64,000 nucleotides of DNA from Truepera radiovictrix DSM 17093. Lineage in GTDB: Bacteria; Deinococcota; Deinococci; Deinococcales; Trueperaceae. The notes beneath the pieces were generated by a model. The model was given only the letters and a program-made list of their open reading frames with translations, searched no databases and was not told the DNA's origin. The DNA lies in the NCBI RefSeq assembly GCF_000092425.1, contig NC_014221.1:1-64000 (forward strand). Reading direction: 5' to 3'. A program made the translations under genes and the position numbers. Numbering within the stretch: position 1 is the stretch's first letter; each line of letters opens with the position of its first letter. Of this stretch, positions 1,501 to 33,187 are shown piece after piece.

Positions 1501-1829
1501 ACTCATCTAAAAGGTCAGTTTTTCATGATTTTAATTTTTTGCTCATTTCGAGTTGTGGATAAGTCTGTGGATAAGCTGTGGATAAGCTGTGGACAACGCT
1601 GTGGATAACGCCCCTATCCGCAGGGCTGTGGATAGCTGTGGATAACTTGCGGGGTTATCCACAGCTCAGGGCGAGTTATCCACAGTTTTATCCACAGCGG
1701 CTTTACCGTCTGGAGCGGATTAAACCCCAGTTATCCACACTATCCACAGCCCCTACTATAGAGAAAGGGTTCTGTCTTGATGCCTGATGTTCTCCGTCCC
1801 CCCTTTTTAAGCTTAGAGGTTGTGCTCTC
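1501..1829. other. Replication origin oriC
   Basis: The dnaA-dnaN spacer has no gene but is packed with DnaA boxes. Forward boxes (TGTGGATAA or one mismatch) start at 1554, 1566, 1577, 1588, 1600, 1627 and 1637. Reverse boxes (TTATCCACA or one mismatch) start at 1655, 1676, 1688, 1731 and 1740. The first five are spaced 11-12 bp, about one helical turn, which suits a cooperative DnaA filament. An AT-rich run at 1519-1547, very unlike the surrounding GC-rich DNA, is the likely unwinding element. The arrangement of all forward boxes followed by all reverse boxes is clear in the sequence; assignment as oriC follows from box density and gene context. Confidence 0.97.
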
Positions 1830-30413: not shown

Positions 30414-30522
30414 CCCTCTTGGACGGTGCCACGTTGGACACCCCACACCGCAACTCCACGCCCCTCCCGCTCGGGCGCCTCCCTGGCCCGGGGTGTCGGC
30501 GTGCGCTCAAGGGGGGGCGTTA

Positions 30523-31134
30523 GTGGGGGCGGTGCGCGTCAAGATCTGCGGCGTCACCCGCACCGAGGACGCGCTCCTCGCCGAAGCCGCGGGGGCGGAC
30601 GCGGTGGGGTTTATCTTCGCCGAACGCTCCAAGCGCCACGTGACCCTCGAAGCGGCCAGGGAGATGAGCGCGGCCTTGGGACCCTTTATCGCTCGCGTCG
30701 GCGTCTTTGTCGACGCCCCCTTCGAGGAGGTCGTGGCGTGCGTCAGGGCGCTTCGCCTCGACGCCGTGCAGCTGCACGGGGGCGAAGACGCCCCCTATGC
30801 GGCGGCGCTACAGCGGCACGTCCGGGTCGTGCGCGCCGTGGGGTTCTCCCCCGAGCTCGACCCCGCGGCGCTGAGCGGCTACCCCGCCGACGCGCTGCTC
30901 CTCGACGGGCTCACCCCCGGCAGCGGGGAGCGCTTCTCGTGGGCGGCGGCGGCGGCCTTTCGGGGGTGGCCGCGCCTCCTCCTCGCCGGCGGGCTCACCC
31001 CCGACAACGTCGCCGCCGGTATCGCGGCGCTCCGCCCCTACGGGGTCGACGTAGCCTCGGGGGTCGAGCTCCGCCCGGGGGTCAAAGACCCCCGCAAAGT
31101 ACAAGATTTTGTACGCGCCGCGAAGTCGCTTTAA
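30523..31134 (+). CDS. trpF: Phosphoribosylanthranilate isomerase
   Basis: TrpF isomerises phosphoribosylanthranilate in tryptophan synthesis. The protein is a TIM barrel with KICGVTRTEDALLA (catalytic Cys), GFIFAERSKRHV, VGVFVDA, VQLHGGE, LLLDGLTPGSGERFSW (catalytic Asp) and LAGGLTPDNVA. I favour GTG 30523 (203 residues) because the family begins just before KICG; GTG 30493 would add ten residues. No other trp gene is in the window. Confidence 0.93.
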   Translation: MGAVRVKICGVTRTEDALLAEAAGADAVGFIFAERSKRHVTLEAAREMSAALGPFIARVGVFVDAPFEEVVACVRALRLDAVQLHGGEDAPYAAALQRHVRVVRAVGFSPELDPAALSGYPADALLLDGLTPGSGERFSWAAAAAFRGWPRLLLAGGLTPDNVAAGIAALRPYGVDVASGVELRPGVKDPRKVQDFVRAAKSL

Positions 31135-31152: not shown

Positions 31153-31348
31153 TTATCCACAGCTTCGCCCGGGGTTGTGGATAACGCGCTTTGCGCCGTG
31201 CAGCACCCCACTTTTCTTCGGTGGTCGGGAGAACGCTCGTGCTGGACGCGCTTTTTGCGGTTTTCGTAAAGCGCGGGCTGCCTAGCAGAACTGTCACCCT
31301 TTTGTCAAGGGCGAAACTTATCCACAGCTCGAGCGGGGTTTATCCACA
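31153..31348. promoter_or_regulatory. Distal cluster of four perfect DnaA boxes
   Basis: The 382-bp gap between trpF and the carboxyltransferase gene has no convincing gene. It holds four exact consensus DnaA boxes: TTATCCACA at 31153-31161, its complement at 31176-31184, and TTATCCACA at 31318-31326 and 31340-31348. The first two form an inverted pair 14 bp apart; the last two are direct with starts 22 bp apart (about two helical turns). Each pair is flanked by GC-rich sequence. This resembles titration or reactivation sites (datA, DARS) of other bacteria, though no homology is claimed. Confidence 0.8.
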
Positions 31349-31516
31349 GCGTTTCGCGTACACTAACCTGCGTACCCTGCGCTAACACCCCAACGCCGTG
31401 CCGAGGAGGTTGAGCGACGAAGTCACAGAGGTGCTCGAGGGTCAGGGGGCGGTCGTGGGCTGACCACCCCCTCGTTGGCGCGTGTGAGGGGCACCTCGTG
31501 ACCACGTCGGTTACCT

Positions 31517-33187
31517 ATGGACGAACTCAAAAGCAGCCTAACGCTAACGGAACGCCGCGAGGGACCCTTTCACGCCCACCGCAAAGCCTGGAAGGCGCTC
31601 GCTGCCCAGCTCGCCGCCGACCGCGCGCGGCTCGCCGCCGGCGGGGGGGAGGGGGCGGTAGCGCGGCAGCACGCCAAGGGCCGCTTAACGGCGCGCGAGC
31701 GCGTCGCGGCGCTTGTCGACCCCGGTACGCCCTTCGACGAGCTGATGACCTTCGCCGGCGACGGGCTCTATCCAGAAGTCGGCGGTGCGCCCTCTGGTGG
31801 CGTGGTCACGGGGATCGGGCGGGTGGCCGGGCGCAACTGGCTGATCATCGCCAACGACGCGACTGTCAAGGCCGGGGCGTTTTTCCCGATCACCGCCAAA
31901 AAGGTCATCCGGGCGCAGACGATCGCGCTCGAAAACCACCTGCCGGTCATCTACCTGGTCGACTCGGCGGGGGTCTATCTGCCCATGCAAGATGAGATCT
32001 TCCCCGACCAGGACGACTTCGGGAGGGTGTTTTACCTCAACGCGCGCCTCAGCGCCGCCGGCGTGCCGCAGCTCGCAGCGATCATGGGCAACTGCGTGGC
32101 GGGCGGGGCCTACCTGCCGGTCATGTGCGACACGCTGGTGATGACGGAGGGGTCGGGGCTCTACCTGGCAGGTCCGGCGCTCGTCAAAGCGGCGATCGGT
32201 CAGAACGTCTCGAGCGAGGAGCTGGGCGGCGGCCGTCTCCACGCCGAGGTCTCCGGCACCGCCGACTACCTCGAGCGGAGCGACGCGGACGCTCTGCAGC
32301 GCCTGCGGACGCTCGCCGGCAGCTACGCCCCCGCCGCTCAAGCCCCGTGGGCTTTGGGGCGCACTGAGAGCCGCGAGCCGAAGCTGCCGGCAGACGACCT
32401 CTATGGCCTGGTGCCGGCCGACGGCGGCACCGCCCCCTACGATGTCCGCGAGGTCATCGGTCGGCTCGTCGACGCCTCGCAGTTTAGCGAGTACCGGGCG
32501 CGCTACGGCCGCACCATCGTCTGCGGCACCGCGCGGCTCGGCGGTTTCTCGGTCGGCATCGTTGCCAACCAGCGCCTGGTGGTGCGCAACAAGGGGCGGC
32601 TCGAGGTCGGCGGGGTGATCTACGCCGAGGCGGCGGACAAGGCCGCCCGGTTTGTCCTCAACTGCAACCAAGCGGGCATTCCCATCCTCTTTTTGCACGA
32701 CGTCACGGGTTTCATGGTGGGGCGGGAGAGCGAAGCCGAGGGGATCATCCGGCGCGGCGCCAAGCTCGTCAACGCGGTCTCCAACAGCGTCGTGCCGCGC
32801 CTCAGCGTGATCTTGGGGGGCTCTTATGGCGCGGGGCACTACGCGATGTGCGGCAAGGCCTACGGCCCCCGCTTTCTCTACGCGTGGCCCTCGGCGCGCT
32901 ACAGCGTGATGGGGGGGCAGCAGGCGGCCAAGACGATCCTGGACATCCAGGTCGCGCAGCTTAAGCGGCGCGGGGTGACGCCCGACGACGCGGCCCTCGC
33001 GGAGCTCTACGAGCGCATCAAGGCCGACTACGACCGCGCGCTCGACATCCGCTACGCCGCCGCGCGGCTCTGGGTCGACGAGGTGATCTTGCCCTTGGAG
33101 ACCCGCGAACGCCTCATCCGCGCGCTCGAGGTCTGCGCGCTTAACCCGCAGCAAGAGGCGCTCAAGCTAGGGGTGTTTCAGGTCTAG
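31517..33187 (+). CDS. Acyl-CoA carboxylase carboxyltransferase (beta) subunit
   Basis: This subunit moves carboxyl from biotin to an acyl-CoA such as propionyl- or methylcrotonyl-CoA. The 556-residue protein has both crotonase-like halves: the N-half with HAKGRLTARERVAALVDPG, LVDSAGVYLPMQ and GNCVAGGAYLPVM, and the C-half with FLHDVTGFMVGRESEAEGI, GGSYGAGHYAMCGKAY and AWPSARYSVMGG. These resemble the methylcrotonyl-CoA branch. No biotin carboxylase or biotin carrier gene is adjacent, so the substrate cannot be fixed from context. Confidence 0.85.
   Translation: MDELKSSLTLTERREGPFHAHRKAWKALAAQLAADRARLAAGGGEGAVARQHAKGRLTARERVAALVDPGTPFDELMTFAGDGLYPEVGGAPSGGVVTGIGRVAGRNWLIIANDATVKAGAFFPITAKKVIRAQTIALENHLPVIYLVDSAGVYLPMQDEIFPDQDDFGRVFYLNARLSAAGVPQLAAIMGNCVAGGAYLPVMCDTLVMTEGSGLYLAGPALVKAAIGQNVSSEELGGGRLHAEVSGTADYLERSDADALQRLRTLAGSYAPAAQAPWALGRTESREPKLPADDLYGLVPADGGTAPYDVREVIGRLVDASQFSEYRARYGRTIVCGTARLGGFSVGIVANQRLVVRNKGRLEVGGVIYAEAADKAARFVLNCNQAGIPILFLHDVTGFMVGRESEAEGIIRRGAKLVNAVSNSVVPRLSVILGGSYGAGHYAMCGKAYGPRFLYAWPSARYSVMGGQQAAKTILDIQVAQLKRRGVTPDDAALAELYERIKADYDRALDIRYAAARLWVDEVILPLETRERLIRALEVCALNPQQEALKLGVFQV

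Follow-up and report, generated by a model that had tools for sequence, protein, structure and literature searches.

A conserved cluster of DnaA boxes beside trpF is a probable control site outside oriC in Truepera radiovictrix and its relatives

In Escherichia coli, datA has an IHF site between DnaA boxes 2 and 3, lies at a conserved distance from oriC, and promotes the hydrolysis of DnaA-ATP, and the DARS loci, built around a core of three DnaA boxes, stimulate the release of ADP from DnaA. To our knowledge, the limits on initiation are poorly known outside E. coli and Bacillus subtilis. Read-through transcription governs IHF binding at E. coli datA (PMC10950094). In B. subtilis, clusters of DnaA boxes (DBCs) hold DnaA, and their joint loss leads to early initiation (PMC5295017). 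DnaA from Deinococcus radiodurans binds a single TTATCCACA in vitro (PMC7988490). A literature search found no equivalent of datA, DARS, or a DBC for the lineage studied here. The site described below has, in sequence, what marks the generic class of DnaA-box clusters outside oriC, namely several consensus boxes within a short non-coding stretch.

The window, the whole 64-kb stretch of the T. radiovictrix genome that was analysed, contains 13 exact copies of TTATCCACA. Nine of these lie at 1554-1739, and four are found in the gap between trpF and a carboxyltransferase gene, within 196 non-coding bp some 29-30 kb from oriC. The four boxes are identical in sequence to those of oriC, and a relaxed consensus (TTWTNCACA) added no box to the exact set over the window. 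The initial annotation had described an inverted pair and a direct pair at this location, and its coordinates and orientations proved exact, with start-to-start spacings of 23 bp for 31153/31176 and 22 bp for 31318/31340. It had also called the gap gene-free and had noticed no other such cluster outside oriC in the window; indeed, no gene was recognised between trpF and the carboxyltransferase gene, and the other nine exact boxes all belong to oriC. The features of the locus and its surroundings are as follows.

166-1500: dnaA, identified by profile
1554..1748, no strand: oriC box array between dnaA and the next gene, with nine exact boxes and three with one mismatch; the yardstick for box sequence
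30493..31134, plus strand: trpF (phosphoribosylanthranilate isomerase, PRAI), left neighbour (PF00697, E 1.7e-46)
31153..31161, plus strand: DnaA box of the left group, direct, exact TTATCCACA; the position-10 box of the f1 geometry, at a homologous position in relatives
31176..31184, minus strand: DnaA box of the left group, inverted, exact; position 33, 23 bp after the direct box
31238..31248, no strand: palindromic motif CGTCCNGGACG, degenerate in the window as CGTGCTGGACG, at a constant offset in relatives
31279..31284, minus strand: putative extended -10 (TG-C-TAGGCA) of a leftward promoter, its TA 17-18 bp from TTGACA in relatives
31303..31308, minus strand: TTGACA, putative -35 of that promoter, separated from the right box by 9 bp
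31318..31326, plus strand: first DnaA box of the right group, exact, conserved in family f1
31340..31348, plus strand: second DnaA box of the right group, exact, overlapping a possible -35 of a rightward promoter
31364..31369, plus strand: possible -10 (TAACCT) of the rightward promoter, tentative, 18 bp after the TTATCC of the last box
31517..33187, plus strand: carboxyl transferase gene, right neighbour (PF01039, E 1.8e-138)

Dinucleotide shuffles gave an expectation of 0.02 exact TTATCCACA boxes per window, with a largest count of 1. The whole genome (3,260,398 bp) holds 41 exact boxes, compared with 3 for the reversed pattern. These comprise nine at oriC, four in the trpF gap, four at 2,850,308-2,850,433, fourteen in five CRISPR leaders, and ten single boxes. 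Outside oriC, the genome therefore has one other four-box cluster, which makes the trpF-gap cluster rare but not unique, and five groups of two or three boxes, all of them in CRISPR leaders. Many equally dense clusters, which the initial annotation took as an argument against its reading, were not found. In the second four-box cluster (2850308-2850433; L035 6309-6434), three boxes lie 22 bp apart, and the gene just downstream is FabH-like in appearance.

Conservation was examined by locating TrpF, which was found in 107 of the 111 genomes of the order, retrieving the flanks for a sample, and counting exact boxes downstream of trpF at a distance of at most 450 bp. The control consisted of 74 trpF loci from other phyla; no Deinococcaceae were evident among the genomes of the class and phylum searches. 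Exact boxes followed trpF in 20 of 25 cases in family f1 (22 of 25 with TTTTCCACA allowed), in 4 of 4 in f2, 9 of 9 in f3, and 1 of 4 in f5, compared with 1 of the 74 control loci. In f4 the count was 3 of 20, most of the sampled genomes having no boxes beside trpF. The remaining flanks around trpF, 420,590 bp in all, contained only 3 exact boxes.

A homologous element was present in all 39 genomes of family f1, to which T. radiovictrix belongs, with near-fixed geometry in nearly all. The pattern TGTCAAN{7,14}TATCCACA, which joins the promoter-like site to the right box, matched 33 of the 39, in a single copy per genome except in G097, which has two, one on each of two trpF contigs; the reversed control gave 2 matches in all across the family. 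The six genomes missed by this pattern also carry boxes, in matching geometry in G017, G003, G004, G099, and G024, and as direct boxes only in G011. High-GC relatives with few exact boxes genome-wide retain them at the element (2 of 3 in G020, 2 of 4 in G005, and 2 of 6 in G008). The left geometry recurs in G029 (f2; 0/10/33), G025 (0/24), and G040 (f5; 0/11/33), so the element is probably older than the split of those families. The boxes of f3 and f4 lie all on one strand, unlike the f1 geometry. Loss of the boxes in close relatives, named beforehand as evidence against a function, is thus not the case, and retention in the 39 family genomes, extending to part of four other families, lends strong support to the claim that the boxes form a functional DnaA site away from oriC. 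We conclude that the stretch in the trpF gap is very probably no coincidence but a genuine control site, and very probably one that has been undescribed until now.

The anatomy of the element was derived from aligned f1 elements (n = 32 for most motif counts). The search pattern included TTGACA and most of the right box, but neither the TA and the TG nor the palindrome, nor the inverted and left boxes. The left group consists of two to four boxes, one of them inverted. Its direct boxes (at most one mismatch) precede the inverted box by 33, 23, and/or 13 bp, giving positions 0/10/20/33, all four of which are retained in G009 and two (10 and 33) in G000. The inverted box (at most one mismatch) lies 130-156 bp ahead of the right box in 31 of the 32 elements. 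The distance is typically about 142 bp, falling at 140-145 bp in 24 of 31, and the outliers (130, 152, and 155-156 bp) are off by approximately one helical turn, which is suggestive of helical phasing but not proof of it. A second right box, exact or with one mismatch, follows the first by 20-22 bp in 16 of 32 elements. The two-turn spacing attributed to the direct pair stands for the right pair; the left group has a phasing of 0/10/20/33 bp. Mean majority-base frequency was 93% over the inverted box versus 45% in the adjoining spacer. Each of the 32 elements has the CGTCCNGGACG palindrome 79-83 bp ahead of its right box, differing from the 14-mer query at 0-6 positions. As for a possible genome-wide regulon of the palindrome, GTCYWGGACGG was rarer than its reversed control in five of the eight genomes counted and commoner in the other three (G020, G007, and G008). 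In G026, each of the three double-sided CCGTCCAGGACGG palindromes (193019-193072, 440922-440975, and 2017519-2017571) has a DnaA box some 40 bp away.

On the minus strand, all 32 f1 elements contain TTGACA-N17/18-TA, and 29 of them also have the TG extension (TGnTA). Relative to this leftward promoter-like site, one set of boxes immediately precedes the -35, and another lies some 100 bp beyond the start. The putative -10 is mostly TAGGNN, without the usual final T, so the leftward promoter may be weak or no promoter. The site was not seen in G017 and G003 despite boxes in place, and no clear counterpart of it was found in the elements of f2-f4. In the opposite direction, a -10 of the form TANNNT at a spacing of 17-18, with the last box as -35, occurs in 6 of 22 elements, against a background of about 0.8% per position; a rightward promoter of this kind is proposed tentatively. 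The bracketing of a conserved promoter-like site by the element raises the standing of gene regulation, which the initial annotation had named as just one of several possible roles.

The genes around the element vary. In f1, a cupin gene and then the carboxyltransferase gene usually follow, the cupin gene being missing in G000. In the window, the cupin gene of several family members is absent, leaving a gap at 31365-31516. Other genes found downstream, assigned mostly by eye and in some cases by profile match, are a ParB/ParA-like pair in G025, TruA-like genes in G037 and G033, an archease-like gene in G047, and a carboxypeptidase-like gene in G040. In f2-f5, the element adjoins trpF with different genes downstream; in G018, G002, and G009, it precedes cupin-carboxyltransferase with no trpF beside it. 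The element is retained when the gene on either side is exchanged. The variation of the downstream gene between families rules out its regulation as the sole role of the element, and a sole role tied to trpF is ruled out by the three genomes that carry the element elsewhere. In G025 (L047 6780-7160), trpF is flanked by a tandem duplication of some 200 bp that includes a DnaA box and the end part of a ParB-like gene. The distance between the element and oriC, taken from box and dnaA positions, is about 30 kb in G000, 46 kb in G030, 59 kb in G034, 102 kb in G029, and 118 kb in G026, and rises to 0.63 Mb in G008, 0.66 Mb in G053, 1.2 Mb in G051, and 1.9 Mb, near the terminus, in G017. The closeness to oriC to which the initial annotation drew attention is thus incidental.

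On balance, we lean towards the view that this stretch of some 200 bp, conserved and present once per genome, assembles a DnaA complex which governs the bracketed promoters and also holds DnaA, in the manner of datA or the B. subtilis DBCs. DnaA would bind the left group, which ancestrally may have had as many as three direct boxes at 10-bp intervals and one inverted box, as well as the one or two direct boxes of the right group, and the two groups would probably be joined in one nucleoprotein complex across approximately 142 bp. The near-fixed spacing over this gap fits one complex joining the groups around the promoter-like site. Such a complex would bracket the leftward promoter-like site and abut the rightward promoter region of the downstream operon. 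Its occupancy would most likely control these promoters in step with the DnaA level and replication, and it would at the same time hold several DnaA molecules. Given the positions of the boxes around the leftward promoter-like site, DnaA could either repress or activate. We infer DnaA binding from the boxes, their identity with the oriC boxes, and the published binding of TTATCCACA by D. radiodurans DnaA; binding in vivo, looping, promoter activity, the direction of regulation, and any effect on the timing of initiation are likewise predictions from sequence.

The element could instead be a pure titration or inactivation site of the datA or DBC kind that times initiation at oriC, its promoter-like motifs being incidental. 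We regard this as possible but doubtful. The boxes are perfect and of high affinity, intergenic, and single copy, with no fixed neighbour; promoter PyjeV overlaps an essential DnaA box in E. coli datA too (PMC10950094), and early initiation followed the removal of six DnaA-box clusters in B. subtilis (PMC5295017). However, TTGACA-N17/18-TGnTA and the palindrome are placed as tightly as the boxes, a distance from oriC that ranges from 30 kb to 1.9 Mb is poorly suited to a timing device, and boxes at trpF are missing in most f4 genomes. Quite improbable, in our judgement, is a DnaA-controlled gene for a small or antisense RNA that would run leftward into trpF with the boxes as operators. Although the conserved leftward promoter-like site, with boxes upstream of its -35 and about 100 bp past the start, would suit such a gene, Rfam gave no match at the element, whether at the site itself with E values up to 5 or at the gathering score over the window and 13 loci. 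For 20 aligned leftward transcripts, RNAalifold returned no consensus structure besides the hairpin of the inverted boxes, no conserved small ORF was seen on inspection, and the element is present without trpF in three genomes. A small conserved minus-strand peptide was rejected by inspection, as its start codons are not kept.

The inverted boxes, whose perfect 11-bp arms (CGTTATCCACA/TGTGGATAACG) enclose a 14-nt loop just 3′ of trpF, might also be taken for a transcription terminator of that gene with an accidental likeness to DnaA boxes. This is very improbable: a scan found no terminator-like site, the right boxes are direct repeats, the f3 boxes are all on one strand and unable to pair, the sequence is identical to the oriC boxes, and the element persists away from trpF. 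That same identity is what might suggest a remnant or copy of oriC, or else a secondary origin, to which we give equally little credence, since no AT-rich unwinding region or tract was seen next to the boxes, GC skew has no lasting shift near 31 kb, and the spacing is unlike that of oriC, with a geometry of its own conserved throughout f1. A chance cluster, for which nothing speaks beyond the small size of the site, has negligible probability and is already refuted by the shuffled expectation and by the presence of the element in every family genome.

Boxes of the same sequence occur in CRISPR leaders. The T. radiovictrix genome has five arrays of one repeat type, which were listed by repeat independently of boxes. 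All five leaders contain the inverted pair TTATCCACA-N8-TGTGGATAA, and four of the five contain a third exact box. The leader boxes (L031-L034) are located as follows.

111995-112052: CRISPR-leader boxes
471412-471437: CRISPR-leader boxes
477142-477199: CRISPR-leader boxes
2407360-2407417: CRISPR-leader boxes
2587613-2587670: CRISPR-leader boxes

In G059, both loci with its CRISPR repeat have an inverted box pair. Most of the CRISPR leaders fetched from Meiothermus-like (f4) and Marinithermus-like (f3) genomes have an inverted pair, about 80-90 bp ahead of the first repeat, and most of the inverted pairs in these genomes lie in such leaders. This leader set (L109-L128, with relatives in f1, f3, and f4) had been picked by the pair pattern, which biases it towards the pair. 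Some leaders of the fetched relatives have TGTACAGGACGGCATTTAAC downstream of the pair, resembling the palindrome of the trpF element. Some of the f4 leaders retrieved show the palindrome-like motif clearly, those of T. radiovictrix only weakly, and a motif shared by the trpF element and CRISPR leaders is only suggested. Among the papers searched, none mentioned both a CRISPR leader and a DnaA box. It is conceivable, though unlikely, that the trpF element and the CRISPR-leader pairs form one undescribed module of the phylum, in which DnaA would tie non-coding transcription and array activity to replication, perhaps together with a reader of CAGGACGG-type palindromes. Binding of DnaA to the leader boxes, if it occurs, would couple adaptive immunity to replication. 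The trpF element itself, single copy and of near-fixed geometry in every family genome, is a ready experimental target, and its independence from both neighbours and from distance to oriC helps to separate the possible mechanisms.

Among known systems, E. coli datA resembles the trpF element in having intergenic boxes outside oriC, on both sides of a spacer, with a promoter overlapping a box (PMC10950094, PMC4585315). Unlike datA, the trpF element has a palindrome and a conserved promoter-like site, and its position relative to oriC is not conserved. The IHF consensus WATCAANNNNTTR is absent from the window and present in 1 of 32 f1 elements; lacking this consensus and a fixed distance to oriC, the element was not filed as datA. 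E. coli DARS1 and DARS2 have a core of three DnaA boxes; the boxes of the trpF element, two to four of them in its left group, run direct, direct, inverted at 0/20/33 or 0/10/33 bp. DARS2 additionally needs IHF and Fis sites (PMC4585315). The B. subtilis DBCs are likewise groups of boxes outside oriC that bind DnaA (PMC5295017), as is predicted for the trpF element, which differs from them in being single copy, conserved, and of fixed internal geometry. The mioC and dnaA promoters of E. coli are alike in having DnaA boxes within and around a promoter (PMC4585315), whereas at the trpF element the promoter is a predicted one and the boxes stand on both sides of it at a near-fixed distance.
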